Assembly: GCA_037043015.1 (NCBI GenBank)
Contig: CM073321.1
Span: 18,845,001-18,909,000 of the forward strand
Reading direction: 5' to 3'
Source of the DNA: Bryum argenteum
Taxonomy: Eukaryota > Streptophyta > Bryopsida > Bryales > Bryaceae
DNA length: 64,000 nt
Part shown: one piece after another, positions 15,430-49,826 of the stretch
Position numbering within the stretch: position 1 is the first letter of the stretch
How the letters are laid out: the number at the start of each line of letters is the position of its first letter
The notes under the pieces: generated by a model
Told to the model about the DNA's origin: nothing
Seen by the model: only the letters and a program-made list of their open reading frames with translations
Databases searched by the model: none
Made by a program: the position numbers and the translations under genes

Positions 15430-15950
15430 TTTATGAGAGACATGTACAAGATGCTTAGTGAGCAGTTGTTTGTTTTTTATTGGAAATAGGAGTAATCTGA
15501 TTAGATTGTATTTTTACGTTTGTGGTAGTGGTAGTGGTAGTAGATAATAGGAGCTAAATATACTGTGTCGTATTAAATGAAATAGTGAAGGAAATGAAAA
15601 AGTTACGGCGGAACACCATATTCATTATTTTGAGAGTATCTCTCAATAATGAGAGTATTGTTGAGTCCCAGAAGTAATGATAAAAATACAAATAGTCTGT
15701 TAAAAATGGTATAAAGTAGATATAGATGGATGAATAATTGTATCCGAGAATGGAATATGCATGAATGTATGTTTATTTATAGACAATGTATACACCAATT
15801 GACGACGTCAAAGGAAATATGCTCATCCAGATATATATGTGAGCTCTAGTTACATATGAATGATCTAAATGTACGATGGTAATTACAATATTTCTATATA
15901 CCAATAGAACAATACAGTATCGTGTTGAATGTAGGCTATCCATGGAGAAC
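15430..15950. other. Gene-free junction, left boundary of element A
   Basis: AT-rich. It includes a 'gtggtagtggtagtggtag' repeat at 15522-15541. No gene and no clear terminal inverted repeat. The left edge of element A must lie in or near this stretch. Confidence 0.4.
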
Positions 15951-15995
15951 CATATTCATCAATGTCTTCTAAATCATATCAAGAGTGTTGCTGTA

Positions 15996-16908
15996 TCACA
16001 AGTGCGAACGGCTTCGAATTTCAGCTAGTGCCTTCCACACTTCTGGTCCACGACTGTAGCTTGTGTATGGTGACAAATGCGAACTTGAATTTTCACGTCT
16101 TTGAAGCTTCAAAATCCGTTGCTCCAATGCATCGCGAACCAGAGGACAACTAACTCCGGGCTGAAATCCATCGTGTGATTGAGTCTGGCGGTGACCCTCG
16201 TGTAATGGCGGGCGCATAGTACGGAAGCGCAAACGCAAGGTATCAACAGCGTGGGCAACAGACGGATTAGGTGGCCCCATTAGTTCAGTCATGCAGTCTC
16301 CAAGTTCTGCTGCCGGCTCCAAAGACTTCAATGGACAAGGCGTAGAGAGAGAATGTGTCGACGCACCACGAGATATTTTTAGCAACGATGCCTTATGAGG
16401 TGATACACAAAGAGCCGAGGACTCAAAAATGACCGGTATGGGCACGACTGCTGCACTTGTCGCCTAAGTGCATGAAAAGACATAGAGAAATGTAAGTAAA
16501 TCAAACTACGATTGAAGTTAAAAACTAAGAAAAACTCATAAATGAACTGCTTCAAGTATGTCATACCTGTACCGGAAGTGCATCCTCAACTAACTCAGAA
16601 TCATCGTAAAGCTTTCTTTGCGGAGCGCCACCTCGACTTGATTCGTCTATTATGGTACGGTTCTTCAGCGGGGAAGGAGAACATGCAGAGTGTGGTCGCT
16701 TACCGCCAAAAGGAGGACTATCCACAACACCATCATCAATTGCCATTGTCGAGTAGTCCATAGTTGATTGTGCAGTAGCTGCTGAGTACATCATATGACC
16801 CATTCCACTCTGCAAAATTGTGTATTGTCCGTAGTCCAAAATCGAATCAGCAGAAGCAGCGCAACGGAAATCAAAATCATTGTCCAAAACCGAGACGGAA
16901 TTGGACAC
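15996..16908 (-). CDS. Third gene of element A, unknown function
   Basis: Two exons are supported: 16567-16908 and 15996-16463, joined by an intron with GT at 16566-16565 and AG at 16465-16464 (minus strand), keeping frame as ...LPVQ|ATSAAV. An AG before 16908 suggests a further upstream exon that I cannot place. The protein is Ser/Pro-rich with a short acidic motif DYSTMAIDDGVVDSP. The B counterpart (48497-49295) has VDYTKEDMDNEEDGVLDSP at the matching place. The C-terminus has a basic helix (ALEQRILKLQRRE). No known domain. It lies downstream of the FCP1-like gene in both elements, so it belongs to the set. Confidence 0.5.
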
Positions 16909-16971
16909 CTGGATACGAATTCATTTTAGAGGAATCATCAACAAGGATGATATGCAATATGATATAGCCAA

Positions 16972-16991
16972 ATCAACTCGACTCGAGTTAA
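16972..16991. repeat. A-type palindrome, single copy
   Basis: Copy of the A palindrome between the FCP1-like gene and the third gene, with centre base C and one arm slightly diverged (gttaaa). Confidence 0.8.
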
Positions 16992-17174
16992 ACCAATGCT
17001 GAGAGAACTAGCACCATCAAATACTACGATAAAATAAAGGGTCGGACACAAGCCCGCTCTGAAATGAAATCAGTCCGAGAGGAGACATTAATATTGAAAT
17101 CATTTATTATAATCTACACAATATACATGGCAAATTTGAATCTTGTCTGGTGAGACCAATCTTGGTTAACTAGC

Positions 17175-18372
17175 CTAATCAAGCACTAGCTTCCTAGAAG
17201 CCTCTACGGCATTAATAAGCTCATTGTATTCTGAAGTATCGAGCTCTTCAGAGAGCATTCTATGCCCAATGTTGTCTTCATTACGGAAAGACAACAAGCC
17301 CTGACCGCGGCTTTGATGTAGATGTTGAATCCAAGGGAGGAGCTTATCCACCAAGAATCTGTCAGATACATCATGCTCTGACCACGAGACTGGCAGTACA
17401 ACATTCTCAGGTTCATTCACAACGTGCTTCTCACGGCTATCGTCAATGATGATCGTGTCATGCTCATTAAACTTTGAGTTTAGACCATTGAAAAGCATAT
17501 CCAGTGGTTTGAGGAAGAAATCCTTATTAGTCCCCTTCAACTTGAAGTTGGACAGCTTAATCCGTAGTCCACGAACCTTGACAACCTCAAATGAGTTCTG
17601 CCCCCAAACAAGACACGGGGATGGCACACCCCGGAACAAGTAGTCAAATATTGACTTCGTGGTCGCATGAACCATCAAACTCCATACGGAGACGTATGCA
17701 ACTTCACTCAACTCACGAAGAAAATCAAGGCAGAAGGGCCGAACGAAAACAACCTTGGGACCAATCGGAGCGGGTAGGACAGTGGAATGTGCACTTGCGA
17801 CCATGTTGTAAACTTGGTCCTTTGGCATGAATCTCTTCTCCTTGCAGACACAGAGGATACCGTTCAAGTCCAGGATGACATTGAGCCACTTGCATGGCAC
17901 CCTTGAAGGAATAGAACGAGGGATATCCTCCATGACTGCAACTACCTGACTGTGCGAATGACTCATCCGCTGTTCAGAAGGGGGGCAGACAAATGTGTAA
18001 ACAGTTAAGTACTGCACTGCCACATTTCGAGACTGACCATTTCGATAACACTAAGAAATCTCAAATCCAAACAATGTGATCACACCAAACTAATAAAGAA
18101 AGGATTGAATGAAAATGAGATTTTGGAATAGGAGCAGCTTACCGGCATCTCTAATTGAGTTTCAGCTGTTTGTGAATCTTGTATAGCGGTCGAGGATGGA
18201 AGAGGAATGTGAACCTTGAGCAAGATTGAATCCGGAATGTGACCTTCATTGTGATCATCTTGCGCCGTGTTACTTGGCTCACCATGAAACGGACTCATAG
18301 GACTAGTGTCTTCCATAGGGGGGACGTCATGAGACACACAAACATTCGGAACACTTCGCAAATCAGTAGAGC
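17175..18372 (-). CDS. FCP1/NIF-like HAD domain protein of element A
   Basis: Exons 18143-18372 and 17175-17969, joined with GT-AG in phase (...LEMP|RMSHSH...). HAD signatures of the FCP1/SCP/TIM50 phosphatase group are seen in order: KWLNVILDLNGILC (motif I, near 17880-17840), AYVSVWSLMVHATTKSIFDYL (motif II region), and HDTIIIDDSREKHV followed by PENVVLPV (the Asp-Asp motif III and its partner). The usual DxDG[TV] motif reads D-L-N-G-I, so the second Asp is Asn. Catalysis is therefore doubtful; a binding role is possible. The B copy (47622-48426) has kept the second Asp but lost the first. An upstream exon may exist before 18372, and I cannot exclude that it is spliced to the larger gene at 18624-24261. 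Confidence 0.6.
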
Positions 18373-18581
18373 CTGCGTAGAAATAAGAGGGAGAAAATGT
18401 GTAAGAAAATATGATTGTATTTCAAACTTTGCGTTCAAAAATGAGCGTCAATTACAAAAAGTATTTACACGATGAACACCAAGTCCAATCTAACAAAACT
18501 GTCCTAAGGGAATATATATACTAGGCTATCAACAACTGTCAAAGGCTTCTACAGGCAAACTTCCATTAATCGAAGGAGAAA

Positions 18582-18602
18582 TTCAACTCGAGTCGAGTTA
18601 AA
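18582..18602. repeat. A-type palindrome, single copy
   Basis: Copy of the A palindrome, centre G, right arm ending gttaaa, between the end of the ParB/methyltransferase-like gene and the FCP1-like gene. Confidence 0.85.
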
Positions 18603-18623
18603 TGAAAGACTAGATCGTGGAGT

Positions 18624-21600
18624 TCAACCTGATTGGGTAACGTTCCGATCGAGAGTCTCATCTTGTGTCCCTATCTGCTCTTCCTCATCCACGGTCTTCC
18701 TTTCCGAATTGACTGGGTCCGATGGTATGGAGCAACTTGATGGGCCTTGATCTCTAGAAACAACTTGAGCGATGTTGCCCGCAGGTGAGGGAGCTGCAGT
18801 CGACTGAGAAGGCGTGCCTTGGAGGGAACGTCGAGGAGATGCATGTCGAGCTGCACCGCTGTCGGAAGACTTAGTGGGCCCGTGAGTCAGGAGCAGAGGT
18901 TCACTATGACTTGGATCGAGGGAGAGGAGCGGCTTTGCATTCAGGTTTGTAATGGCTTGGACTACTACCCTAGGTATTCTCGCGAAGGCCTCAGTCATCA
19001 TAAACTTCCATCGTTGCTCATCCCCATCTCTCTGGGCTCTTCGTTCCTCGCGCTCTCGAGCAAGCATTGCTTCAACTTCCGCCCTTTGTCGCGCCTCGCT
19101 TCCTCCTGCATTCTGACGAGCTTCTCCATTAGAGCGTCAACGGATAGTGACTCCCTTTTCTTCTTCTGAGGCGATGGCGTGGAAGCCGGAAGAGAGCTAT
19201 CAAAATAGCCTTGTTCCTGGAGATGAGGAAGATGAGAAGATGAGCCTCGTCCAGTTTGGGGCGTTGTGGGGATTTGGGAACCGTAAGCCTCAACATCCTG
19301 GTTAGGATCGTCATCGTCGTCACTTGACCCGATTACTATCGGTTTTGGGTCATTCAAGTCAAGTGGTAACTCTACTCCCCTGACCTTCTTCTTCCCCTTC
19401 CCCTTCTCCGTCTTCGTGGGAGGTGGTGGTGCTTCCAGTCTCTCCCTGGATCCGGAAGCCTCATCAATCCGGAACCCACCTTCGAAATCTCAACAATCCA
19501 AGTTGAAGACATCCATGGAAAGCCAGACAACTTCGTCGTGCTCGTTGCTGAAGCTGAACGTGTAATTGATCAGCGAACACATCTGCGAGTAGATACATCA
19601 AGAGATGACAACGTCAATCATTTGAAATTTTAACTCGAATCGAGTTGAAGTGGAGGTGGCGTGTGAAAGCACTACAAGACTAATCTGCTGTGTGCATTCA
19701 ACTCGAGTCGAGTTGAATACCAAATATGAACTCTAAGCGCCTTCAAACAACAAATTCAACTCGACTCAAGTTAAATACAAGAACGCATGTAAGAACAAGA
19801 CTTCGTAGCCTACTTAGTAATCCATTCAACTTGAGTCGAGTTGAATTGAATCCAAGTTTGTGAAAAGTGATCCCTGGACACTAAGGTGCGCACTGAACTC
19901 GACTCGACTTAAATACAACGAGCTTAGAGAGCAACAGAGTCATGACGAACTATTCAACTCGAATCGAGTTAAAATACATAGGATGTCCTTACCCAGGCCG
20001 CACAGTAGAGCTTCCCGCCTCCAAAAACACTGAGGATCGCATCCCCTTCCTTGCAGAAGAGATGAAGCAGCTTCAGGTAGAACTTCATCCTCAATTCCGT
20101 ATTATAAATACGGTACTTGAGTTCGTTGTATCTCCCGCAGATCTTGAACTGTGGAGTGTCGGGGGCCTGTAAGAACTTTGGGAGATTCGAAATCCTCAAC
20201 TTCTGAGATTTTCGAAACAAGAACAGGATCTGGACATGATCCTTGGCCTTCTTGGTCGACGAGGTTTGATCCTCGAGTCGCTCGTAAGGAGCCGGAACAT
20301 ATTCCGCATACTCTATCTTGTAGTTGGTTCCAAACTCGCAACTATCGAGGTGATTCTTGATCTTCGCCTCAGCATCCTTACTTTCGCAGACGGAAACCCG
20401 AGCGGGGATTACCACCGGGTCCGTGATAGACTTTAGGACTTGGAGGACGTTGTAGAAGTACGAGCCTGATGACGAGCTCGATGAAGCTGATACCTCCTGT
20501 GCTCCGGGGAGATTACGGAAGTCCATTATTCCGACCTTGATTCTCTTAGATGACAATTTGTTCCAAGAGTCATCGTGCCATTCCCCTAGAACATCGTCCT
20601 GCAGGCTGTAGGCCCAGAAGTTTGTTTCACCCCTTGGAACCTGGAACTTCCCCTTGTTGGCGAGGAAGCATCTGAAGAACTCTGCTGCATACGGCGAGAG
20701 TTGCTCAACGGACTTCTTCTTGTTGCTGGAGAATTTTGCCAACGTGAAGAAGGACTCCCCGGGATTCGTGATCAGGACGTTCAGTGTAGCTGGCATGATC
20801 TTGAAATCGGTCTTGAATTTCTTCCAGCTCTCCTTCCTGAAGTCCCCACTCGTGTTGAACAACATTAAGTCAGGGCGCATGCTGTGAATCACGCGCTTCA
20901 CAATGGTCTTCCTCTTGCAGCGCTCCAGCCAGTCGTAAGAGCTGTAGCAATCTACAAACACACCCTTCATCTGCTTCAATGTGACTTTGGGGTATGAGTG
21001 TCGCCGTTTTGGGTTCGGTCTGTTTAGCATATGCTCGGCCAATCGCTTGATCTGGGCGTAGCTTGTGTTGCCGATCCATTTGAAGAACTCCCTAGTGAGG
21101 TGTCCATACTCAGGCTTCCACTTCCCCAACTCCTTCATCTTCCTTCCTGTGTCGGGGTCGATGAGCTCCCCTTGGGATGCGGATGAGATAAGCTCTAGCC
21201 AGACGTTGTAGACATCATTTGGAGCACAGATGATTTTAAGCTCATTTTGGATGTTGAGCTTCTCTCTGGCGGCCTTACTAGTTGTCACTACTTTCTGGGC
21301 GTTCTTGACGTCGATGAGAGCAAATCTAATCTTGACAGCTTCCATGAACTCATGTATCAACTAAGTACGATATTGAATTAGATATTTAACTCAAGTCGAG
21401 TTGAAATAGGTTACAGCAGGAATAAAATCGAATTATTATCGTTAGTAGTGTAGGACGGTATTCAACTCGAATCGAGTTGAATGGAGTTACACATACGTTG
21501 AATGCGTCCTTTGCAGGTTTCTTGCCCTTGTAGGCCCTCTGTGTGACGGTCCTGCCAACCTCAGTAGCCTCTTTTGGATTCTCCGGTCTACCGAGGCTTT

Positions 21601-24261
21601 CCCAGAGCTCCCGCGCCCCAATGATGTTTGTCGCCCACGTTGGATTTGTATTCATGAAGTGGTTGACCCTGTTGTAGAACGCGGAGATTCTCCGAATGAT
21701 GGACTTATCTTCGTTCCATACTACGAAGCAGTCCCAGGTCTTGGAAGCGTCCGTGATGCAAGCGTCTACATCGAGCCTGTTTTGCAACTGCTTGGAGGCC
21801 TCCATGCAGTGTTGTCCATTCACCATATAGAACTCCCCGTCTTTTATCTCCTCCCAAGATTGGGGTTTTACAAGCGTATTCTTTGGGAAGATGCAGAGGG
21901 TGTTCTTCTTCTCCTTATCGCACATCTCAATCAGGAAATGCATCGTGTGCTTGACTTTCTCCTGCTTGAGGTTTGGGATGTTCAGGTCCGCGGGGGGGTA
22001 AAGAGACGCTCGATTGGAATCTTGTAAGTGACATCTGAGCCGAAGATGTATGAGTCTTGGCAAAGTGCCTAGTAGTTCTTGAACGCATTCATGGACTCCT
22101 TGTAATCGACAAATTTGTCTACATTGTCGATGGGTACTTCAGTCAAGGCCGACACTAAGCTCGCCTGTTCAATCTTAGTGGGATCGGCCAGGGTGGACTT
22201 CTTCGTCATGACTGATTTGAGTTTCTTTTGTGTCGGCCCCCGCTTAGTCGTGGACGGATTTGCCTTGGGCCTCTTTGATCCCGTCGCCTTAGGAGTCTGA
22301 TAAAGGATGGACTCGTGGCTGCCGCTGTGCATGCTTACTTCCTGCGTCAAACGAAGGGGCGTCATTTGGATCTTCTTGCGTTGCAGCTTCGCCTTGAAGT
22401 TCACCATGGCAGTGACGAGTGATCGGAGACGAGAGGCGAGAATACTTGGGGGCTGCTGGTTACCGAGTTCGGTTGTGAATCGAAACTCACGAATGTGTTG
22501 CTCGACATTCTTCGCCAAGGGTTCGTAGGGAGTATTTCTTATACTCTCGACATGAGCCCAAATGTCGAAATCAATCTTTGTTGTGGCGATCATGTAAGTG
22601 AACCTGTAGTCTTGGTCCACAGCCGTGTCCTCATTGGGGTTGTCCACGATGCACGTCACGCAAATCCAGTGCATGTTGTGGACGACGACATCGATGATGT
22701 TCTCATCCAAATTGACGGGAAGGTTGCATTCTGCTCCCTTGTATTTGGTGACGACAGCCAGCTTGTCCGTGTGCGGTGTATGGAACATACTCCACCATTC
22801 GACATCGTTAGGCTCTGTGTGGACCCACATGTCGCCAAATATTTCGGGATCTGCGACTTCGTTGTCCCCTTCGAGAACATATTGATTGAAGAATGCTGAG
22901 AGCCTCTCCTTCGGATTGGTTTCTCTTGATGAGACAGAGGAGACAAATGAGTATTTATCCGTACGTATTGCAAGGATTAGTATTCAACTCGAGTTGAGTT
23001 GAAATAGCTATCTAATTGTCTCTGTTAGTCTATGATTATCGTTAGCAACTATCCAAGTAAGTTTTATTCAACTCGAGTCGAGTTGAAATAGCATTCTATC
23101 TCTATCTGTTAGTCTACGATTATCTTTAGCAAGGAAGTGGGATTCAACTCGATTCGAGTTAAATGTATCCTTCATGACGTTTTGTGGTTTCTAAATACAG
23201 AGCTTAGATACTTTCAACTCGACTCGAGTTGAATTAATCGTGAGACTAAATGTTCTTCATTTCAACTCTAATCAAGGTGATCGTATCGACCCATGTATTT
23301 TGTCAAATTTAGTCAGAGGATTGTGCATTACTCTCGTTGAATTTGACATGTCGGTTTTCAGCCCTATGGATACTCTGTCTGTTTTTAGTAATTTCTATCA
23401 TCGAATAATTCAACTCGACTCGAGTTGAATATTATGGTTCTCTTGCAACTGCATGAAATTATGAAAAAATCCTTCCTATTTCAACTCGATTCGAGTTGGA
23501 TTATGTTTCTGCTTTATTATCCACTACAGTTATTCAACTCGAGTCGAGTTGAAAATGTACAGTGATAACACTTATCGTATTTTATCGATTCAACTCGAGT
23601 CGAGTTGAATGATTGTCTTGTTTAGCACATGCGCATCACTGATTCAACTCGTATCGAGTTGAATATGTTTACTGACACTATAGTGGTAATTCATCGATTT
23701 AACTCGAGTCGAGTTAAATTGTTCGGGCTGCGGCGAGTAAGTAGCATAGGGGAAGAATATCAGTACCCTTATATCTTGTGTTGTCTGGATTCAACTCGAA
23801 TTGAGTTGAATTGTTCAAGCCTAATCTATCATTCACTGTTAAAGGGATTCTAGGACAGAGATTCAACCCGGGTCGAGTTGAATTCCCCCTTGTCTGTGAA
23901 CTCGCGTTTTAACTCTAAGAAACGAATTGGATGGACAATTCAACTCGGCAAAAATGAATGGATGGAGAATTCAACTCCGCCGGGGTTGAATCTGACTGCA
24001 GTCTATAATGTCGGTGGCATGCAAAGGTAAAAAAATGTGTTTCCAATTCAACTCCGGTCGAGTTGAACTGCTTATCTTTATTGAATCTTTAGAACATCAA
24101 CACAACTCGGCTACGGTTCAATCGATCTGAACTGTTCTCTACGCTAAGTATGTACAAAAATAGTATTTTGAAGAACATGGGAGCACAGATATCCAATGCC
24201 AAACTATTCAGCGGAAACTTAGTCACATTGAGCGAGAGTTAAGTATTGAATACTCACCCAT
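18624..24261 (-). CDS. ParB-like and DNA-methyltransferase-like fusion protein of element A
   Basis: Four exons fit: 24258-24261 (ATGG, start codon), 21497-22922, 19993-21360, 18624-19582, all with GT-AG borders and conserved phases. Exon 2 ends with a ParB/sulfiredoxin-like region: KIPIERLFTPP, then about 60 residues later FYMVNGQHCMEASKQL, like the GERRxxAA box of ParB. Exon 3 (about 455 codons) has GIMDFRNLPG (20512-20541), where amino-methyltransferases have motif IV [DNS]PP[YFW], and ends in LRMKFYLKLLHLF...ILSVFGGGKLYCAAW, like motif I (FxGxG), the usual order of the beta-type N6/N4 group. Exon 4 adds a Lys/Asp-rich tail with a coiled coil (MEKLVRMQEEARRDK). Breaks: a frame change near 22063-22069 in exon 2 and a TGA early in exon 4. 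The motif IV prolines are absent, so activity is doubtful. Domain calls are by eye. Confidence 0.55.
19629..19973. repeat. Six A-type palindromes filling intron 3
   Basis: Copies at 19629, 19697, 19755, 19825, 19893 and 19953, each about 21 bases, inside the 410-base intron (19583-19992) between exons 3 and 4 of the ParB/methyltransferase-like gene. Spacing is 54-72 bases. Centre bases vary (A, G, C); arms are mostly kept. The intron is hardly anything but these sites and short spacers. Confidence 0.9.
21385..21481. repeat. Two A-type palindromes in intron 2
   Basis: Copies at 21385 and 21461 (the second perfect, centre A) inside the 136-base intron 21361-21496. The matching intron of element B also carries a B-type palindrome (43619). 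Confidence 0.9.
22923..24257 (-). other. Intron 1 of the ParB/methyltransferase-like gene, splitting the start codon exon
   Basis: On the minus strand ATGG is followed by the donor gtgagt (24257-24252) and the acceptor AG (22924-22923) is followed by AAACCAATCC, giving MetGluThrAsnPro. The 1335-base intron is mostly palindromes and spacers. Confidence 0.55.
22983..24066. repeat. Dense A-type palindrome array (about 14 copies)
   Basis: Copies start at 22983, 23067, 23143, 23213, 23409, 23480, 23533, 23589, 23643, 23698, 23790 and 23862; weaker ones lie at about 23971 and 24047. Each is TTCAACTCGA, a free base, TCGAGTTGAA, or close to it. All four centre bases occur (G, C, A, T) while the arms stay symmetrical. 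Copies near 23862-24066 drift to CCGG-containing forms, showing decay at the outer edge. Confidence 0.93.
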
Positions 24262-24599
24262 TCTGTTGTGTGCTTCCCTGCTAGACTGTGGATACAGAAA
24301 TTGATTGGACAAGCCTCGGCTTCGTCCTACTCCTGTAGCAAACAATGAATGATTGTAAACAATGAATGATTAGATCAAAAAAATTTACAATGACTGATTC
24401 ACAGCGAAATTCTCAACACTAACGCAGATTCAAGTATAAAAGAATCACATAGTAGATCAATTCAATTGCAATTGATTCACAAACCGATGCTCTGAAAGTA
24501 AACATAAGCATTCTAATTATCTAAAATCACTGGGAAAAACCTCATTGACAACTCTCACCAATTTGCAATTCAACAAGTTTATTAACTTCCCCGAATCAA

Positions 24600-25500
24600 C
24601 CCTAAACAGCTCAAACACAGCAACCTCTTTTGTTTCAACATTCAAATTCCAGATCTGCTCTTAAAAATCAGGGTTCAGAAATTTTATAAACCAGCTCCAG
24701 TAGGCCAGTTTCCTCTCCTTTTCTAAATCAGACATCTACACTCAAACTTCCTCTTCATCTTTTCCAATGTAATCACTCGAATTTCAAGGCTCCTAAAAGC
24801 TAGTAAAATTCAACTCCCAAAGTCTGGAAAACTGACAGAAATGACCTAAACTTGCACCACCACAGAATGAAATTGTAAACCAAAAACAAACAGAGTTACA
24901 GAGAAGGTTGTGAAGTCCAGGAACTTAGATGATCGCTGCGGAAGCTACAAAAGCGCCGTCAAACCAGCCACCCACTTGATGCAGCGATTATCTCAAAAAG
25001 CAGACTCTAAGCTAACAGGGTCGAGGCGCAGAGCTAAGAGAAGCAAAAAGCGTCGGGGAGCAGACCAAGAAGTAAGAAGCAGAGCAAAAAGAGCGATTAC
25101 ATAGAAAAGAGACTATATAAACATAAACGAACACGACCTTCGAGGCCAGAAGATAGCTGATTTCGAGGCCACGAGCTAGCGACTGTCGAGGCCAGAACTA
25201 CGCGAGCGAGAATGCAAGAAAACGCCAACTAACGCAAGAATGCAAGAACGCTGACAGCCAAATTCAGCAAGCGTAGCGCAAGAGCGAGGAAGAAGAGGAA
25301 TACAATGGGGGCCAAACCCTAGCCCCCCCCCCCGCTCTCCGTTCCCAGCCATAATTCGAGTGGGCTGCCCGTAATCTTGCCCGGGCCGCCTTTTGCACTG
25401 ACCATGCCTACCCCGGCCGCCTTACACGCTGCCCCCGCCGTATATTGCTTCGGGCAGCAATTTCTTGCCCTTTTCATGTCTGCCCGTCTCTACACTACAC
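24600..25500 (-). promoter_or_regulatory. Likely promoter and 5' leader of the element A ParB/methyltransferase-like gene
   Basis: On the minus strand this stretch runs from a GC-rich block (25310-25500: GGCGGC, CCCGGGCAAG, a G-run, CTAGGGTTT) into a pyrimidine-rich leader (cctcttcttcctcgctcttgc near 25280). It sits about 1 kb upstream of the start-codon exon. A matching GC-rich then pyrimidine-rich block precedes the same gene in element B (40300-40640). It holds no coding frame I trust. Calling it a promoter is inference. Confidence 0.4.
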
Positions 25501-25509
25501 TAAATTCCA

Positions 25510-26100
25510 TTATATTTTTCATTTATTTCTAACTATTTTTTCAAGTTAATTTTTTTGAAAAGAAGATAAGTTCAATAAATGCCTATTCTAACACTATATG
25601 TATTGTATCGTAAAATTTTAGACTCCACAACACTTTACAATAGTATGTGTAGTATTAGATAAAACGTGTCAGCGAAAATACCATGTTTTAATTACTAAAA
25701 AGTTGTGTGTAGTTTTATATTGAAATAAGATACAAACTCAAAAAAAAAACGTTATTTAATTGGCAATACCCAAGCACTAATTTAACTTTGATTATGCTCA
25801 TATCCAACTTCCCATTAGTTAACGTTCTCCAATCCAATAAGGTCATCATTCACTCGAAAAGGAAGCTAAAAAATTATCCCCTCTCTACCGATTCCTAAGA
25901 TGTTGTCATGCTCATTATTTTTATTCGTGACCATCTTATTTTGTTGTTGGTTTTTTCTTTTAATATTATCACAACATAAAATTATATTAATAATATAAAT
26001 AGCTACATATTAAAAATATTATTGGATAGATATATAATCAGGTAGGAAGGTTTGAGAGAACGAATTGGACAATATAAATAAGATAGTGAGAGTATATAGA
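25510..26100. other. AT-rich intergenic DNA, no gene
   Basis: No open frame of interest and no palindrome of the A type. It is the middle of the divergent intergenic region of element A. Confidence 0.5.
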
Positions 26101-39632: not shown

Positions 39633-39639
39633 ACTTGAG

Positions 39640-40290
39640 TGCAATTTTAGCTTTCAATTTATCTTGACGTAAGTTTTTGCCAATAGAACCATCTTAGAAA
39701 TGCACGTAGAAGTCCTATCTCGTACGTTTACTAGCAGTTGATATTCGTAGTTAAGTATTGATACAATTGTTGTGTCTTAAAGGTCAACGATTCAGGTGTT
39801 TGGATTTTTTGGGCGTTGATTGTTGATTCTCTGTCTAATTAAGTTTCTCATTTTATTGTGCTCTTTTTGCAAATTGTTGTTGGAATGCATTTTGCGTTTG
39901 GTACTTTGAACATCTTTTATTTGCAATTTAGCTCTACAACACGCGCGTTTTGCTCGATACATATGTTGGAATTTAGGTCGATTGGTTTTTGAAAGTTTGA
40001 ATATTACCATTATAACGAATTACGTGTTTTCTCGTATTTTATTTATTTACATTTATCCTATTATTGAAATTTTGAAAGTATTAAAACTTTTGCAAAAAAC
40101 TCATAGCATATAGATTCGTTTGTCTTACAAGTTATAAAAGTTATAAATATGTCCATCATTTTTATAGGATACTTACTCTAAGATTCTAAAATACTTTTTC
40201 TCACCTTATTTTGATTTCCTACCAATTAATCAAAGTTTTGACCATAGAAATAAATTAAACTTATTAAAATCGTGAAAACAAATAATAAAA
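39640..40290. other. AT-rich intergenic DNA of element B
   Basis: No gene. It contains at 40007-40028 a 22-base word (starting CCATTATAAC, ending TTACGTGTT) that recurs with one change at 49539-49560. Confidence 0.4.
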
Positions 40291-40860: not shown

Positions 40861-41041
40861 AGTTCCTAATTCTGAATTTTAGGTTTTACATTGAGGTTGC
40901 GCTTTTGGAGCTTGTTCAGTACATTGCAGGGCACAATGTATTGGAATTTTGCTCGTAGAGTAATGGAGCTCTTCAAATTTGTGTTCTTGGCTTTGAAATT
41001 TGAGTTTTTCTGCTGAAATGTGCTCATTTTAACTTTCAGCT

Positions 41042-41165
41042 TATTTAGCTCGATACCCAGTTAGCTCAATACCCATTTAGCTCAATGTCCATTTAGCTCG
41101 ATGTCCATTTAGCTCGATGTCCATTAGCTCGATGCCCATTTAGCTCGATGCCTATTTAACTAGAT
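41042..41165. repeat. Tandem array of B-type half-sites
   Basis: About eight head-to-tail copies of one arm only, ATTTAGCTCGA plus 'tgycc', period about 16-17 bases. Elsewhere the arm always occurs as an inverted pair. The array directly precedes the palindrome cluster. Confidence 0.88.
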
Positions 41166-41198
41166 CAAATATTATAATTCTACAGGACAACCGAAGCC

Positions 41199-41882
41199 CA
41201 TTTAGCTCGAGTCGAGCTAAATGGTCTCGCACTTTGCGGAATAGTTTAATGGAGGTTATTAATCTGCATGTCATAGTCCAATGTAGTGCTAGACGTCGGC
41301 TCATTTAGCTTGACTCGAGCTAAATGAGCACGTTAGAATGCGCGTGGGAAATTAAACAAGAGATCAACTACTTTAATTGGCCATACAACGCAAGCCCATT
41401 TAGCTGGAGTCGAGCTAAATGGTCTTGCAGTTTGCGGAAAACTGTAATGGAGGTCGGCTCATTTAGCTCGAGTCGAGCTGAATGAGCACGTTAACATGCG
41501 CAAGGGCAATATTCAGGAGATCATGAACTGTAATTTGTCCTACTGCGCAAGCCCATTTAGCTCGACTCAAGCTAAATGGTCTCGCGTTTTGCGAAAAAAT
41601 GGAATGGTGGTCGGCTCATTTAGCTCGACTCGAGCTAAATGAGCACGTCAGAATAAGCAAGGGAAATCAATACATCTCAAGCCCATTTAGCTCGAGTTGA
41701 GCTAATTGGTCTCGCAACTTAATTTGGTATTGCGATTTTTAACCCGGATCTCCATGTTTGCAATAAGGCCAGATACCTCAAGCCCATTTAGCTCGGGTCA
41801 AGCTAAATAGTCACGTAAACGTTGATAGATCTTTCTTCTCCTTGTCGTCCCCAGGCTCTTTTAGCTCGACTCGAGCTAATTG
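41199..41882. repeat. B-type palindrome cluster (nine copies)
   Basis: Copies at 41199, 41302, 41398, 41460, 41554, 41617, 41684, 41785 and 41858, each 25 bases or nearly so. Flanks alternate between 'caagcccatttagc...taaatggtctcgc' and 'cggctcatttagc...taaatgagcacgt', so the cluster grew by copying a two-site unit of about 160-250 bases. Confidence 0.93.
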
Positions 41883-41991
41883 CGCACATGCATTGCTTCC
41901 AGATTTGATTGTACCAAGCATTATGATTTTATGTGTGTGTATTTTGCCCTTGTGAATCTTACATGTGAATCTGAAGTGTTGATGTACAGTT

Positions 41992-44900
41992 ATGGCGAGA
42001 ACCAGAATCACTGCTGTAATTGTTCAGATGGATGCCAATGCACCTGCCAAGCTTCCCGAAGTGGAAGTCGATATGGAAGCGGAGGAGCAAGAGTCAGTTC
42101 CTCAGGTAAGACTCCACCTCATATCCATAAGCTCATTCGATGTGTCAATTTAGCTCGAGTCGAGCTAATTCGCCCTCTGTAAATTTGTTATCCATAGGTC
42201 ACTTATAACATGCAAGCACTAGAGGGACACCTTGAACCAGTCGTACTCGAGTTAGCACACAATCCGCTTGCAGCTGTTGCTGAGGACGCGCAATGGGGGA
42301 GGTTGTGGACCCCCAAGAGGAATTCCATTCTCTCTTGTTCTATTCGTCCGATAAACAAGACCCATTTCTTCTTCTACCAACAATCGTGGTCCCACAGGGC
42401 ATTTTTACCTCTGTGTATTGATGCCTTCATCGGTCTTGTTACTTATGAAGACGCATACTTCCTAATCAAGTTCGAAGCATCGGAGGTCGAAGGCTTTGTC
42501 TTCACCATTTTTTTTCCGACCAATGAAGTCCGATTCTCCCACGACTTCATTTGCGATTATATGGTCGGGAAGGTCGATCCCACTCAGCTGCATCATCTTG
42601 ACACAAGATTGCTACCCAATCTTTTGTCACCAAAAGCCTTTGTGAGATCGTATGTTCCATACATGGCGCAGATTTGGAAGGCTCTGTCTGATTTCAAGAT
42701 TAGGAAGAAGAAAGGGAAGGCTCCGATGAAACGGACCGGGAATCTACTGTTGCACGCTCCATCCAAAAATGCTCCGTTGGGTCTAGGCACTCCAGAGGGA
42801 AGTCTAGGCGGGCAGGGATTGAAGCGACCAAACCTGATCTCATCCAGCTCAAGCTCCAAAAGGAGCAAATCCTCCCGAAGCGCACTTACGTTCATGAACC
42901 CCACAATGATCGTGGTTGTCTCAGAGAAGGAGATCAAGTATGCGGAAGCAACGAAGGCTCTCCAGGACTACTGGGACAACTACGCAGATTGTTATGTCTT
43001 TGGTCGCAACAATCCTCTTGATGTGTCGATCAACCTGCTCGACCCTGCAGAACCGAGATTCATTGTTAGATCGTTGAAACGGACTGGAATCGCCCATTAC
43101 AAGAACATATTGATGAATTCCCTCGATGTTAGTTCCAGACAAACTATAATCATTATGCCGAAAATTGAAGCTCAGCCTGAGATTTGAGATTGAGAATTGC
43201 TGGTCAAAACTTGTCGGTTCCGGATTATCGATGGGCAACACCACGTTCAGGCTGCAAAAGAGTTGATTCGTGACCGGAAGGTTGACGACACCAAGTTTCT
43301 CACCCTGCAAACATGGAAAGCACATGTTGTGTGGCATTCGAACATAAGCAAGATTCCGGACATGTCGGCCATGGCGAACAAGACGAACAATGCTGGCACG
43401 TTCATTCCTTCCTGGGCAATAAACATCAAGGGCGCAAGAAAAGTTTGGGAAGATTACGGCCACCCGGTGAAAGTGAAAAAGCCACACCCTCGTGAAACAC
43501 CGGAGGAATTAGATAACTGTACCAGATATAAGGTATGAGATTACTTGTATTTTTCTTTGCAAAAGAGATTTTTGTTTGGCTAAATTCGCATTGTATGTAG
43601 ACGTTTTTTGGAAATGTCGTTTTAGCTCGATTTGAGCTAAAACCGCATTGCATGTTTCTTATTTGTTTGGCTTTGGTCCAGGCATTTGCGGCTGCTATGG
43701 TAAAGAGATTCATGAGCATCAACACAAATGCGAGGTACGAGATCGTCAAACCGTCCGACCTTCACAACGAGCTTCTGATAATCACATCTCCGGACGATGT
43801 CTACGAGTTGTGGTCGAGGTTCATCACCAACTACGGACTTGGAGAGCTGATTGACCCCGACACAGAGCTCCCATTTAATCTGATGAAAGATTGGGAAACC
43901 GCCTCAAAGAAGTTCACCTTGAACCGGGAGTTCTTCAAGGGAATGGGGCAGCTAGACGCTGAGGACCTTGAGGTGTTGGCGCTACATTCGTTGAATGAGA
44001 CTCCCAGTCAGACATTGCCTTACCCAAAGGTGTCCGTGAAGAAGCCCGCAAAAAAGTACTTCCAGTACTTGAGCGCAAAGCAGTGGGTCGAGAACCGGAA
44101 GAGGAAGAACACTGTTGCAAGGAAATTGCACAACCTTAAGCCCTCACTCGGTTTGTTCGACTCGGAGTGGAACTTCGACGCCAACAACTAGAGGAAGTTT
44201 AAAATGGACAACAATTTGACTCGTCAGACTATGTCCATGCTTCTCTCAGTCTCGGGCGACTCGTTCTTCACCCTCTACCGCCAAAAACAGACAAAGAATA
44301 AGAATGTAGAAGAGATTTCGTAATATGCAACTGAGTTCTTCAAGAAGTTCCTGGATGTCAAAAGGACATTTGAACCTCCTACACCGATTGTCTACACGCG
44401 ACAATTCTTTTCATCTACATTCAGATTCGGGATTTGGGACAAAGACTACGCATGGAGCCAATCTAGCAAGCGTGATATCGGCTTCATTGATTTGCGATAT
44501 GTCCCTGGAAGTGGAAGTAGATTGGACAACACGGAGAGTCCATACTTTCAAGAATTCCTTGATGTCTGGGCAGACACCGTGACCGACCTCCACATCGAAG
44601 ATCCCGAGGTCTGGATGTAGATTACCTCGAACGTCCATCAACACTGCGAGGGAGCGGTGTACGTGGATAAGAAGTTGAAAGATGGGTACGTTCGCAAGGC
44701 ATCCAACTACATGCCATCCAGCAACGAGCGTTTCAATGGCATAGGAGAGGGAAAAGCTTCAGAGAAGCACCTGCTCCCCTTGCTCTTCCTTATCAAAAAG
44801 AGTAGCCACTCGCAGAATGTGTTGAATACCATTCCACATGTATTCTATGCTGCAGACTTGCCCCTCTACTCGAAGCCCAAGATGTACAGAGAACACGACT

Positions 44901-47066
44901 TAGCTCTCAGTCACTCCGAGTTGCGGTTGGAGTTCTATTGTCGTGTCTTGAAGATGTTTTCATCTCCGATGAGAAAGTTCTTATCAATAATGGCTGGCAC
45001 AAAGCCAATGTTGGCTGGAATTGTAAGTACCTTGCGCCATTTCTATTCCATCCAATCATGTAGCTCGAGTCAAGCTAAACGTTCTCATGCTCATTTAGCT
45101 CGAGTCGAGCTAAACGGTCTCATACTTCAATCTTTTCATTCTTCGTTTGTTGTTCATGGCCATTTAGCTCGACTCGAGCTATTTCGTCTTCGTCTTCTTA
45201 TAAGTTGTTGTTTCTTTCTATAACAGATGTGCCAAACTGAGACGTATGTGGTTCTCAGCGAGAACAAGGCAGCGGCTAACACAATTGCTGCAGCTAACTA
45301 TCAACGTTTGGACTACAACGATATCAATGTCGCACCATACGTAAATCCGGAAGCTAATGCCGGTCCGAAGCCTGGTGCTCAAGGGACGGGGAAGGGAAAG
45401 AAAGGGAAATCAAAGAAGAAGTCCACACAGCCTCTTAGCGCTGATGACGACTCTTTAACTTCGGAGCATGAACGTGAAGATGAAGGTAGTCCTTCTTCTC
45501 CGGCAGGGATGAATGCCCCTATCGATTCAACCGTTGCTCTCGCGTCTCCTCCCGCCATTGACTGGGCAGGCGTGGCAATTTCGTCGAGTACTGCTCGTGC
45601 TCCCACTCGTGGTCCTGGTACTGGAGCTTCTCAGGGTCGTGGAAGCGGTCGAGCTGGGTCTTCAGCTTCTCGTGGCCGCGGTACAGCACGGGCCCCCCCG
45701 CGCGAATCCGCTAAGCGTTCTTCTTCTCAGGCGCGAGCTGGCGAGGCTTCTCGGTCAAGATGCAATACCATGCCTCAAGCACAGAGGGCACTCGAATCAA
45801 ATTATGGCGCCTGCAATCTCGTCGAGGACATAGAGAGCCCGCCACTCCAACGCCTGCGTTGTGTACGACCTTCCGGTGAGGATTTAGCTCGAGTCGAGCT
45901 AAATGTGCAGTCTCTTGGGGTCGTTGATCTTAAGGCCGCTCGGACTCCGGGTGAACACATGGTTCCACCCCCGAATTTTCGAAGAGAGATTCGCTCAAAA
46001 AACACAAATGATCAAGTCTACCGGGAGTTTTTTGGCAATAATGATGTAGTGCCTAGCCAAGAGCAACTGCCGCGAGATGCGCCAACTTCCGACAACTCTG
46101 ACTCGTCCGACCATGACAATGTCGACGGTGAGAGCAACGACGATGATCGCGACGACGATAACCACGTTGATGATGATGACCCCATGGCCATGACCTTAGG
46201 CGACGAGGTGGCTCCCGATCCATCCTACGACGAGTCTACTTTGGCGGTTGCCCCTCCTATCGAGTCTGCTGTTCCCCAATGCCCGCAGATCGCAAACAGG
46301 AGGCAGATTGAGAAGGGGAAGTACGACAAACGGTTCGTGAAAGGAGTCTGGAAGCCCCAGGACGAGCCGGAGGATAACAAAGAAATCCGATATTACGACT
46401 TCTCGGAGGAGCCTAATTCTCCAGAGCCAAAGCGCGATGAGGATGATTCTCTTCTCCCTGTCGGGCCCAAGGAAGATGGGGAGCTTCACAACCACCAGTG
46501 AAGCTCGAAATTGTTGTCCTTCTGCTCACAAAGGATCAGAAGCGGGCACAGAAGCTGCAGGAGAAGGAAGACGGAAGGCCATTAAGGCACAGGAACTTGC
46601 TGCAAAGCGGATGGAGAGAGAGAAGCAAAGGTTAGCAGACATCAAGGCACAGAATGCACGAGTTGACAGACTGGAGTCCATCATTAGCTCTCAGTCTGAA
46701 ACTCGCATGCATCTAGGCAAGATGGAACAGATGTTTCTTTTATTCGGGAATATCTTATCCAATTTGCCTATACCTATCCCCATTGCCACCTACAATCGAG
46801 AACAACCTTGCGTGAGCATCTGTAACGCGAGTCCAGCAGCCATTGACGCGTCTCCACAACCTCCTCATGTTTCTGAACCGGAGATTGCACCCTGCCCAGT
46901 ACTTGAATCAGGGCATTTCCTCGAGATTTCAAATAGGTCTGGACAAGAGGATGATGTCGCGACTGAGGTTACGGCAACGCCGACACATTACACTGCTGCA
47001 GTAACATTGGATGTGGAGGAGCATGAAGAGGTTGTCCCTTCCCGTGGCTGCTGTCGAGACGGCTAA
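41992..47066 (+). CDS. ParB-like and DNA-methyltransferase-like fusion protein of element B
   Basis: Exons 41992-42105, 42198-43532, 43682-45022 and 45227-47066, all with GT-AG borders and the same last two junctions as in A (the last exon starts MC in both). Exon 1 gives MARTRITAVIVQMDANAP. Exon 2 has SINLLDPAEPRF and FRIIDGQHHVQAAKEL, a ParB-like pair of motifs. Exon 3 has GFIDLRYVPGSG (44480-44515) at the place of methyltransferase motif IV, and LRLEFYCRVLKMFSS...LSIMAGTKPMLAGI|MCQTETYVVLSENKAAAN, like motif I and the strand after it. The tail has GRG-rich (45620-45700) and acidic Asp-rich (46100-46180) stretches, then a coiled coil (46540-46720). The frame is broken near 43187, 44190, 44322, 44619 and 46440-46500. 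B-type palindromes lie in each intron. Confidence 0.55.
42147..42171. repeat. B-type palindrome in intron 1
   Basis: One copy, centre G, in the 92-base intron 42106-42197. Confidence 0.88.
43619..43643. repeat. B-type palindrome in intron 2
   Basis: tttagctcgatttgagctaaa, in the 149-base intron 43533-43681, the same intron position that holds two A-type palindromes in element A. Confidence 0.85.
45057..45185. repeat. Three B-type palindromes filling intron 3
   Basis: Copies at about 45057, 45092 and 45161 in the 204-base intron 45023-45226. The matching intron of element A holds six A-type copies. Confidence 0.9.
45881..45905. repeat. B-type palindrome inside a coding exon
   Basis: Perfect arms over 11-12 bases, centre G, within the last exon of the ParB/methyltransferase-like gene, read in frame as LARVELN. 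It lies in the low-complexity tail between the GRG-rich and acidic parts. Confidence 0.85.
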
Positions 47067-47069
47067 GAC

Positions 47070-47620
47070 TTCACCGATAAATCAAGAAATTAGTTTCTAT
47101 CCTTTCTTTTCCTTTGTTTTTGCGATCGTTGCTGGTGATGGCAGTTGCTCTGCTATTCCCTCGTTTTTGACGTTTTTGCTTGTAGTAATCTTATAGCCGG
47201 AGCTCCTTGTTTTACAGGAGTCCGCCACTGGTGGCGGCGAATAGGTCGACAAGTAGTCTCCGAATTATTGGATGTTGTTTCGCTTTAGTACATAGTACAT
47301 TTATAATCGTTGTACTTATTGAAACATCATTCAATATAATTGAGACCTTTTTTTTTACATCACTTTTTGTCTTGAGTGAGTCTGCGTCCTTCTCATCTCA
47401 AGGCCCTAAATATCGTCCTATTCTACCCGGCCCCCCTTCTGAATACCTTGTTCCGTCCGATTGCTTCAAAATCCCCCACCAACCACTTCATGTTACCTGT
47501 GGGTGTCGCGGTTCAATACCAAATCAGTGCTGGCAGTTCTTTGCATACTTCAGCATTTTGCAAGGTACACACCCTCTAGTTTTAATACCCTTTGCCATTG
47601 TTACGTGTTCCCTCGCTGCA
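47070..47620. other. Linker between the large gene and the FCP1-like gene
   Basis: A possible exon lies at about 47400-47571 (code-like, ending at the donor gtacac), followed by an intron to 47621. It may be the first exon of the FCP1-like gene, matching 18143-18372 of element A in position but not clearly in sequence. Confidence 0.35.
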
Positions 47621-47621
47621 G

Positions 47622-48426
47622 GTAGGACCGTCCAAACATCCCATACAACGTATCTTGCCTGAGCTACCCATTACGCATATCTCGCGCAGTCATTTTTTGG
47701 TCCAAGTCCAAGTGGTTGAATGTGGTGTTGGTGTTGGATGGGGTTCTATGTTCGATGGCCTCTATGTCTACCCCAACGCCTGCAAAGTGCCCGTCTTTTC
47801 TGGATCCCAATAATCCTCCGGTCTTTTCTTCCACCGTCCCAACCTTAGTTGCCGACAGGGTCATCTACTGTCGTCCCGGGTTGACCGAGTTCCTTGGCTT
47901 ATTAAATTTGTTTTGCCACATCCACATTAGGAGTACCCTAGGTCCTAAGGTTGTCCATGGGCTCTGCTCCTTTTTGTTCTCGGAGTCAGACGCTACCCCT
48001 GGAGTTGTCTTGGCTTCCAACCAATGCGATAATCTGTTGTTAAAGAATTACGCATTCGCCAAGTACCCCGGCACAACAGATACCATCCTCTTAAAATATC
48101 CTCAGCGGCGGTTGTATCCTAGGAAGGGTGCCAATTTCAATGTCGATAACTTGCTCATTGTCGATTCCAAGCTTGAGACTTGCATTGTCGTGCCCACAAA
48201 GAACACACTTTTCACTGTTCCGTGGAACCATTCCTCTCCGGAGGAGCCGAAGTCCGAGTTATTAAAAAGGATAGGGGAGATATGTCTTGCCGTGCATTTG
48301 AACGGTCCTGAGAATCTTCATAAGACTATGAGCTATCGTAGACCTACGCATAATGAACCGTCGAAGGACTCAGAGTTGTATAAGCTCCTGAGCCGTAATC
48401 TTCCATACTTGTGGAATCAGGAATGA
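47622..48426 (+). CDS. FCP1/NIF-like HAD domain protein of element B
   Basis: The exon opens after cgctgcag. HAD landmarks match the A copy in order: KWLNVVLVLDGVLC (47710-47751), VIYCRPGLTEFLGLL, HIHIRSTLGPKVVHGLCSFLF (motif II region), NLLIVDSKLETCIVV (motif III; the usual Asp-Asp reads Val-Asp) and LFTVPWNHS. The DxDG[TV] motif reads V-L-D-G-V: the first, nucleophilic Asp is Val, whereas the A copy lost the second Asp. Both copies should be poor phosphatases. A frame change between 47622 and 47710 parts it from its N-terminal stretch. It stops at 48426 (NLPYLWNQE). Confidence 0.6.
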
Positions 48427-48496
48427 ATCACTGGGAAGAATTGAATAATTTGCCTTGAATACTTTCATCATTGGTATTATTCTAATTTTTACCCTA

Positions 48497-49295
48497 GGAA
48501 CCTTATGTTTATCGGTTGCTTAGATGGAGACATATTGTGGATCGATTGGTGAATCCCCCCTCGACATACGTGATTAAATGCGTTGTTATATTGTGTACCT
48601 TTTTCATTGCACTTAGTGTCATGGACTCACTTTCTAAAATGGGTGTGTTTATGAACCAGGTTGTTGCCTTTGGGCATCAGCTCTCTCCACTTCCATCATG
48701 TCCTTTGCGAACAAATCTTGTAATTGGTCCTTTAACGGTGTCAGATCCTTCCATTACAAGTGAGGACTCGAGAACTTTCTTGGAACGAAGGCGGGGTCGG
48801 TTGATCTACTGTGCTCTGGACGACGCGTCGGCTGTAGATTACACGAAGGAGGACATGGATAATGAGGAGGACGGTGTACTAGACAGTCCCTCCATTTACA
48901 CTCAACCAAGTATTGCAACCCGCCATGATCCAATCGGTGTGATGACCTCGGTTGCAGTGGCACCCCAATGTGAAGCTGGGTTTCGCAACTCTGTCGTAGA
49001 TGGCCGTGCCTATTTAGCTCGATTCGATCTAAATAGTTCCTTGCCGAATACTGTGGCTCATTGCTCCTTGTCTCTTGGGGCAAACCCTCGCATTCATCCT
49101 GCACGATTTTTGTCCGAGACTCACCGTCTATTACAGAGACGTGCATTGAAGCGTCGTAGAAGTGGTGCGCTTATGGAGATGGACGAGGCTGCATTCTCTA
49201 AATACACACGTAGTGAGGAACCTGTATTCACTAAGATAGATACTAGTGGTGATATACTGATACATCCTCTCCGCCACGTTGTGATTGGTAGATAA
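48497..49295 (+). CDS. Third gene of element B, unknown function
   Basis: Begins after the acceptor ttaccctag at 48496 and runs open to 49295. A hydrophobic stretch near residues 23-40 (VVILCTFFIALSVM) could be a membrane segment. VDYTKEDMDNEEDGVLDSP matches the acidic motif of the A counterpart. The C-terminal part is basic (HRLLQRRALKRRRSG). No known domain. A B-type palindrome at 49011 is read in frame as LARFDLN. Confidence 0.5.
49011..49036. repeat. B-type palindrome inside the third gene
   Basis: tatttagctcgattcgatctaaata: centre T, one change per outer arm, read in frame. It is the last clear B-type copy; a half-site (tcgatctaaatgg) lies near 49493-49505. Confidence 0.75.
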
Positions 49296-49299
49296 TATA

Positions 49300-49826
49300 A
49301 TGCCTACCTTTTGGAGGTCTACAATTACACCAATAAATTGTATTTGTGCTTTCATATCATTAAAATTTTCTCTTGCAAAAACATATTCCTTAGCTTGCTT
49401 TACGATTTTCTTTCTCTTATTGTCTTTTATATTGAGAAAATTCATCATTATCAGTAATAACCTGATGATTTGGTAAATAATCAGGTGAGAATCGATCTAA
49501 ATGGAAGTCTTCCTAATTACCAAAATCAGTATATATTCCCATTATAACAAATTACGTGTTACCTGATCATGATTGAGATTCTTCTTTGGACAGTAGGAAG
49601 TCTCTCAGCTGATGATTTCGACAATTCTTAAATCACACATGTACGAGAGTATAAGGACTTAATTTTGCCGTTTTTATCCCCTTGTAGAGATCTCTAAGGT
49701 TGGAAACGAGGCCGGACCATGAATCCGAGGGGGCGAGACAGGCAGGCACCAACTTAGACGTGAGGTGTCTCCTTGGGTATAGTTAGTGATTTGCTATGAT
49801 TCTTACAAACTCATCTCAAGGGAGCT
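49300..49826. other. Right boundary zone of element B, no gene
   Basis: AT-rich. The word at 49539-49560 repeats 40007-40028 in the same orientation. Confidence 0.4.

Follow-up and report, generated by a model that had tools for sequence, protein, structure and literature searches.

Family-specific palindromes accompany clades of ParB/methyltransferase-like proteins in DNA transposons of the moss Bryum argenteum

Two sister transposable elements, A and B, lie in a stretch of 64,000 nucleotides of the moss Bryum argenteum (contig CM073321.1, positions 18,845,001 to 18,909,000; hereafter the window), each studded with its own palindrome and each carrying a DUF7869 gene and a gene for a ParB/DGQHR-like protein with a fold of the beta-class N6-adenine methyltransferase type. 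Scanning the genome (259 Mb in 25 contigs, the window sitting on the 44-Mb contig C1), we found a match between palindrome type and protein clade throughout the five clades examined, each family coding for such a protein and holding tens of palindromes of its own type, mostly in promoters and introns. We put slightly more trust than doubt in the explanation that best covers the observations as a whole, namely that a single group of DNA transposons would have acquired a self-recognition like that of VANC anti-silencing, built from unrelated parts.

An earlier note on this DNA had described two palindromes, each around one free base and with the inner CTCGA in common, and had found by eye no A-type site in B and no B-type site in A; both descriptions hold. 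The window contains 10 exact A-type sites, or 32 at up to 3 mismatches, and 3 exact B-type sites, or 20 at up to 3 mismatches, whereas 100 dinucleotide shuffles yielded none of either type, placing both far above chance. Element A holds 31 of the 32 A-type matches and element B 19 of the 20 B-type matches; since the sole exceptions (at 41462 and 29403, 3 mismatches each) are single cross-matches to a B site and an A site, respectively, the two types are unmixed in the window. Genome-wide, we counted 875 exact A sites and 1,474 exact B sites, the reversed pattern giving 0 for both, and 9,262 sites of the core CTCGANTCGAG against 100 for its reversed pattern. Half-sites are paired with their own kind in 8,494 cases (1,509 AA-type, pure A; 6,985 AG-type, pure T) and form 206 hybrids, where random pairing of halves would by arithmetic give about 2,600, so that the types are not mixed at random within elements. 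Each element or 20-kb stretch holds 19-40 sites, and coding sequence, which makes up 38% of A and 63% of B with approximate exon limits, contains 0 of 31 A sites and 2 of 19 B sites.

Genome searches with the A exon, the B exon and two outside relatives revealed further clades. Fifteen loci were picked by protein from the listed rows, non-randomly, and their palindromes were then found de novo: 13 hold at least three perfect-core palindromes of their own clade's type, and the other two belong to clade E, with four imperfect E-type sites each. Read from outside to inside, the palindrome arm is aTTcAACTCGA in A (8 loci or copies), GnnCATTTAGCTCGA in B, CAGTTTAGCTCGA in C and AGTTTAGCTCGA in D, and the imperfect E palindrome is TTAGCTTGG-T-TCGAGCTAA, spaced at 104 bp; of the 13 E-type sites in the genome, 12 lie in three arrays. 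Three features alone separate the C palindrome from that of D: arm position 13, the centre base (restricted to C or G in C, any base in D) and the spacing (46 in C, 55/59/99 in D). In a tree of the methyltransferase exon all five clades are monophyletic and the clade labels require 4 changes, the minimum, against a shuffled mean of 12.5. Clade labels came from the best-matching protein query and palindrome types were scored separately; the two agree in 21 of 21 own-genome rows, 8 of them copies picked by palindrome and 13 by protein. This tree leaves out L034 and L035 (long frameshifted rows) and P0005, P0008, P0014, P0017 and P0020; a tree of the ParB exon recovers the same clades. Two pairs of sister clades emerge, C with D (55-58% protein identity; AGTTTAGC in common) and B with E (57-60%), and A stands apart from the others (28-43%, mostly 30-35%), its decayed loci L034-L036 (52-60% protein identity) retaining the A palindrome.

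The pairing also holds when read from site to protein. At 3 of 3 places predicted from palindromes alone we found a protein of the predicted clade: a clade-E exon at C6:12410700-12412400 (96% to E), and a clade-C exon at each of C1:823430-824960 (90% to C) and C1:376380-378220 (82% to C). For eight of nine A clusters (start of C1), an A-clade exon was found within 6 kb; six of the 14 B clusters are accompanied by a B-clade exon and two others by a B-type DUF7869 gene; among the scored candidates, none of the 23 clusters has another clade's methyltransferase exon nearby. The proposal of a selfish family in which protein and site diverge together is thus borne out from protein to site, by the 15 loci and the tree, and from site to protein, the palindromes, as judged from site clusters and half-sites, proving neither unlinked to these genes nor randomly mixed.

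In outside relatives the palindromes are visible as translated intron starts, that is, as read-through peptides. In the ParB-exon tree, 10 of 11 T-type peptides (LARxELN/FSSxRAK) group with C and D in one clade and 4 of 4 QL[ED]SS peptides in its sister clade; P0177 was added to the count by eye and P0163 left out for length. QLESS is ambiguous at its glutamine codon (CAA or CAG). For the methyltransferase exon, the peptides of P0013 (A side) and of P0010 and P0021 (C/D side) fit the tree. The peptides of P0168, P0171, P0172, P0173 and P0177 would be consistent with a palindrome of a sixth type, its arm being TCAGCTCGA, provided that the glutamine codon is CAG.

We compared copies in 12 pairwise alignments (six A and six B, some copies shared). 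Arm bases agree at 2,006 of 2,097 positions in A and 3,325 of 3,515 in B, flank bases at 3,151 of 3,718 and 3,725 of 5,182, and centre bases at 79 of 105 and 87 of 175; as sites were picked in one copy of each pair, arm divergence is at most halved, and tandem arrays, chiefly in B, may align out of register. The diagnostic arm position 6 is 97-100% one base inside any given element, whether in promoters or in introns; a change of type therefore had to reach tens of sites, which fits one factor reading all of them. A single helical phase for the arrays was ruled out by the spacings (52/53 and 35 in B, 46 in C, 55/59/99 in D, 104 in E), and an RNA hairpin was set aside, by reasoning only, because a DNA-binding dimer better accounts for conserved arm bases around a centre of one base.

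The ParB/methyltransferase gene is best read as having three or more exons and as holding palindromes in both introns. A donor GG/GTAAGG and an acceptor CAG/ flank the palindrome-holding intron between the methyltransferase exon and what had been taken for an unknown third gene; because these splice signals are good, we read the latter as the C-terminal exon. The earlier statement that one gene set is present twice therefore stands for the DUF7869, ParB/methyltransferase-like and FCP1-like genes, the third gene being an exon and not a separate gene. Structure prediction of a clade-D homologue supports a methyltransferase fold of the beta-class N6-adenine type, and an NGQH motif, conserved in the alignment, together with profile matches to ParB-like families weakly suggests the ParB assignment. 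Pfam recognised neither ParB nor a methyltransferase and NCBIfam saw no methyltransferase; when the two halves, ParB and methyltransferase, were searched against Pfam, NCBIfam, PHROGs and PDB sequences, no decisive match emerged. An origin in giant viruses was also considered and rejected, profiles of both gene halves giving 109 and 5 pattern matches in a viral contig collection, none of them confirmed.

The catalytic motif of N6-adenine/N4-cytosine methyltransferases is [DNS]PP[YFW]. In 24 of 24 aligned proteins its position, as we place it through the secondary structure, reads D[FL]R, with D330 and R332 invariant, and the position of the glycine-rich loop reads, by the same kind of assignment, GxK; this sets the moss proteins apart from the beta-class N6-adenine methyltransferases M.BceJIV, MboIIA, CcrM and RsrI and from MTA1/METTL3, in which DPPY/W and the glycine loop are found. 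Since DPPY is lost yet the methyltransferase-fold region is under purifying selection, these data suggest a DNA-binding pseudo-enzyme. The same selection and the same predicted fold would suit a protein that has kept its activity, methylates adenine (or N4 of cytosine) within or close to TCGA, a sequence contained twice in the core, and so marks its own element as active, as algal ParB-methyltransferase proteins are proposed, in the accessible text of PMC12477816, to bind and modify their own sequence. We consider this unlikely, albeit the best of the alternatives, given the replacement of both motifs in all 24 aligned proteins and the failure of Pfam and NCBIfam to see a methyltransferase.

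Element anatomy was derived by aligning 20 ten-kb stretches around clusters of both palindrome types to each other. The A family measures 15-18 kb in four two-ended copies bounded by terminal inverted repeats (TIRs) of about 25 bp, and its target-site duplications (TSDs; CG, AC, TA and AA) are matching 2-bp sequences in 4 of 4, counting the base preceding AACAC as the first base of the element; at 3 bp none of the four matched. The A family thus has the TIRs and target duplication of a cut-and-paste DNA transposon. TIRs of the B family also start AAACAC, and its one two-ended copy, B1217, is about 19 kb long with AC/AC flanks, so that full copies with clean ends and target duplications, which the earlier note had wished to see, are available as four A copies and one of B. 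Its pair of sister elements at 15950..49400 stands, as two related DNA transposons of 14-18 kb with revised limits, A running from 15612 to 33280 and B ending at about 49560 (Table 1). Because its DUF7869 half (~35597-40028) is inverted relative to other B copies, the window copy of B is rearranged; both window copies are decayed, A, as we read it, by one stop and one frameshift in the ParB exon and B by four stops in the methyltransferase exon. In both families the DUF7869 gene and the ParB/methyltransferase gene are divergently transcribed; both promoters have palindrome arrays, and the genes are separated by a long spacer. In element A, an AT-rich spacer (26276-28220) separating the two divergent gene sets contains repeated blocks of ~130-440 bp with 74-94% identity. 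A B-type stretch adjoins one A copy, A6765. C1:24432921-24447960 pairs a DUF7869 gene of B type (93%) with a methyltransferase exon no more than 59% like B; this locus is possibly a recombinant or a further clade.

Table 1. Features of elements A and B in the window, in window coordinates.
Feature	Position	Strand	Remarks
Element A, ~17.7-kb DNA transposon, decayed copy	15612..33280		TIRs and 2-bp target duplication CG; limits from alignment with A8161, A8481, A6765 and A8574
TIR of A, ParB-cluster end	15611..15637	+	AACACCATATTCATTATTTTGAGAGT
Single A-type palindrome, non-coding	16972..16992
FCP1/NIF-like gene of A (open reading frame, ORF)	17178..18050	-	Pfam NIF E=1.5e-13; DxDx motif position is DLNG, seen in copies
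Single A-type palindrome, non-coding	18582..18602
C-terminal exon, ParB/methyltransferase gene of A (a reading; earlier 'third gene')	18627..19582	-	splice acceptor CAG/ATG
A-type palindromes, n=5, intron between methyltransferase and C-terminal exons	19629..19973
Methyltransferase-fold exon of A	19993..21360	-	inside 463-aa ORF 19972-21360; fold modelled on clade-D homologue
A-type palindromes, n=2, intron between ParB and methyltransferase exons	21385..21481
N-terminal and ParB/DGQHR-like exon of A	21497..22983	-	broken by stop and frameshift; homologues in alignment
A-type array, 13 sites (≤3 mismatches), upstream of ParB/methyltransferase gene	22983..24067
A-type array, 9 sites (≤3 mismatches), upstream of DUF7869 gene	29134..29896
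DUF7869 gene of A, in pieces	29871..32312	+	Pfam DUF7869 E=5.8e-34 at 31203-31607
TIR of A, DUF7869 end	33254..33280	-	CAACACAATATTCATTAATTTGAGAGT
Element B, DUF7869 half	35597..40028		TIR at ~40003-40028; orientation opposite to other B copies
B-type array, n=4, upstream of DUF7869	36254..36526
DUF7869 gene of B, in pieces	36771..39574	+	Pfam DUF7869 E=1.1e-34 at 38234-38797
Element B, ParB/methyltransferase half	41040..49560		TIR at ~49530-49560
B-type array, n=9, upstream of ParB/methyltransferase gene	41199..41882
Single B-type palindrome directly ahead of long ParB exon ORF	42147..42171
N-terminal and ParB/DGQHR-like exon of B, decayed	42198..43600	+	DndB E=0.2
Methyltransferase-fold exon of B, with stops	43601..44997	+
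B-type palindromes, n=3, 3' of methyltransferase exon (intronic by reading)	45057..45185
C-terminal exon, ParB/methyltransferase gene of B (a reading)	45224..47063	+	one in-frame B-type site at 45881
FCP1/NIF-like gene of B	47626..48423	+	Pfam NIF E=0.001; homologue in B1781 E=6.7e-5

The product of the DUF7869 gene is probably the transposase. Its nearest named relatives are moss proteins, the best rows matching almost the full length of the query at 55% identity in Ceratodon purpureus and 51% in Physcomitrium patens; it had no confident Foldseek fold match and no convincing sequence relative in the PDB, and a literature search that covered few subscription papers found nothing on DUF7869. 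CACTA/EnSpm elements have TIRs starting CACTA/G and a TnpD-type transposase, and Sola1 elements their own transposase and a 4-bp TSD. In the two long DUF7869 proteins scanned Pfam shows DUF7869 alone; TIRs starting AAACAC also set the moss elements apart from CACTA/EnSpm, and 2-bp TSDs from Sola1, the latter judged by Pfam and TSD length and not by comparison with a Sola1 protein. Support for the FCP1/NIF-like gene comes from Pfam NIF in A and in B1781, the value for the window copy of B missing the cut-off. FCP1/SCP-type phosphatases have the catalytic signature DxDx(T/V); it is altered in 9 of 9 copies, to DLNG in 5 of 5 A copies and to VLDG, ELDG, MLDG and ELNG in four B copies.

Placement of the sites bears on three further alternatives. 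Giant plant elements often have transposase-binding arrays near their ends, and with DUF7869 genes in the same elements the palindromes might be bound by the DUF7869 transposase for transposition, as internal counterparts of subterminal repeats; we give this little credence, as most sites are found at promoters or within introns of the ParB/methyltransferase gene, kilobases from the ends, which themselves carry different TIRs. Tandem repeats of ~20 bp (GAGCTAAACGCGCGTGTTGTA) with a half-site-like AGCTAAA lie subterminally in B (window ~39900-40028; L023 ~1225-1365) and are possibly transposase sites. We rate just as low the probability that the protein is an autorepressor which, bound at both divergent promoters, holds transposase expression down and so controls copy number: arrays do lie directly upstream of both divergent genes, but repressor operators are usually few, against 19-40 sites here, introns included. 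Slightly less probable still is a system like ParB-parS, in which the protein would load at the palindromes and spread, or cluster copies, for segregation, cohesion or nuclear positioning and not for expression; bacterial ParB does use a palindromic target and NGQH is conserved in the ParB/DGQHR-like region, but chromosome-integrated elements need no partition, and neither Pfam nor a PDB profile search showed a ParB domain. That the palindromes are old repeats merely inherited with each family, with no functional pairing, is very improbable: descent by itself would bring congruence with the clades, and the regular spacings point to array growth by tandem duplication, but separate arrays within one element share one type, and arms are far more conserved than flanks around a free centre base, a gap that a site-picking bias able to halve arm divergence does not explain.

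Most scored rows lie on C1, which makes up 17% of the bases: 84 of 99 for A and 68 of 88 for B, counting best candidates only, some of them pieces of one copy. Among the same candidates, stop-free B rows number 10 of 20 off C1 against 7 of 68 on it, and stop-free A rows 4 of 15 against 17 of 84, a small difference. C1 may be a non-recombining sex chromosome. Outside both elements, the window holds an inverted pair of short tandem-repeat blocks (4341-4767 and 49910-50342; GAGCTGTCTAACTCC-like units, 69-83% identical), possibly the ends of an unrelated larger element, and two more local direct duplications of ~230 bp (50816-51290 and 53888-54341).

VANDAL elements carry a Mutator transposase. 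In Arabidopsis, the motif of VANC lies in introns and upstream regions of VANDAL elements, often in tandem, and changes with the protein (accessible text of PMC5735166). Judged by that text, the moss elements are alike in their element-coded factor, in short motif arrays in introns and upstream non-coding regions, in related families with different motifs and in co-divergence; family-specific arrays are indeed found here in both kinds of region. They differ in that VANC has DUF1985/DUF287 (same text of PMC5735166), whereas here we find a ParB/DGQHR-like and methyltransferase-fold protein, and differ from VANDAL in their DUF7869 gene, free-centre palindromes and 2-bp target duplication, as well as in binding being argued from sequence. 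Neither VANC domains nor a Mutator transposase appeared among Pfam matches at E≤1 in 20 window ORFs and 6 further proteins. The moss elements are thus best read as working, by analogy, like VANC/VANDAL while not being members.

A closer relative in protein content is Sola1-1_Ec32 of Ectocarpus, an element of 21.5 kb in which a 1,104-amino-acid ParB-like and N6A/N4C methyltransferase protein is transcribed opposite the transposase; the methyltransferase is predicted to make N4-methylcytosine (4mC) or N6-methyladenine (6mA), self-modification is suggested, and ParB-methyltransferase transposon genes occur in green and red algae as well (PMC12477816, in its accessible text). The moss elements resemble it, as far as that text goes, in a single transposon-coded ParB-like/methyltransferase protein, its orientation opposite to the transposase and giant size, and differ in the active-site motif lost in 24 aligned members and in palindrome arrays of each family's own; the accessible text mentions no family-specific palindromes for Sola1-1_Ec32 (PMC12477816). 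ParB-methyltransferase genes in algal transposons are therefore already known from that account, whereas their pairing with family-specific palindromes was not found in a literature search that covered few subscription papers.

We propose that these are families of one DNA-transposon group, with a DUF7869 gene, AAACAC... TIRs and 2-bp target duplications, in which the ParB/methyltransferase-fold protein would bind the palindrome as a dimer. Because the inner CTCGA-N-TCGAG is conserved and the outer arm family-specific, the protein would find mainly its own family; because its active site is changed from DPPY to D[FL]R, it is most likely a non-methylating DNA-bound factor. Such a factor could have an anti-silencing or activating role, holding the promoters and body of its own family open against host silencing and driving expression, and the NIF-like protein, its catalytic residues also altered, might assist it as a partner by acting on the transcription machinery. 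As protein and site diverge, a process for which adaptive coevolution may be the cause, new and less interfering families would then form. More tentatively, and with rather more doubt than confidence, we suggest that this is a second, independently invented form of transposon self-addressing, in which a captured bacterial-type ParB/methyltransferase without the methyltransferase motif reads family palindromes and protects or activates its own family, allowing up to five mutually blind families to coexist.

Several observations weigh against this proposal. Simple common descent would by itself also produce co-segregation. Reading frames contain two B sites, some hybrids occur as single sites inside A and B copies (for example C1:515422 and 8166461), and 7 of the 23 site clusters lack a scored gene nearby, so that the expected travel of each type with its own clade is seen in part; these seven are left unassigned because scoring in each search covered only the best 76-94 of its 1,051-2,150 candidates. 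The inner TTTAGCTCGA is common to B, C and D, and the differences between C and D are slight, so that the specificities of B, C and D may overlap. Among outside relatives, P0177 is the T-type exception, placed among P0168, P0171, P0172 and P0173 in a clade mixed in its peptides, and P0019 (QLHSS, C/D side) disagrees with its tree position. On the protein side, a Foldseek search with the methyltransferase model returned nothing at 1e-3 or lower; ParB-side matches were DGQHR at E=0.0085 in 1 of 36 members, a ParB-like phage family (phrog) at E=0.11 in 1 of 36 and DndB at E=0.2 in one window piece, and unrelated families matched as well or better in the same scans (PF20277, E=0.001; NF046087, E=0.0013). 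The anti-silencing role is drawn from analogy only, and binding from the sequence.

If the proposal is true, the VANC strategy, a private sequence code with its own reader, would have evolved at least twice, from proteins unrelated to each other. A single genome would offer as many as five natural protein/site pairs which, together with the outside relatives, would bear on how specificity and tens of targets change together. A use other than methylation is suggested for the ParB-methyltransferase genes of eukaryotic transposons, and the long palindromic sites, with their candidate readers, are now open to direct testing.

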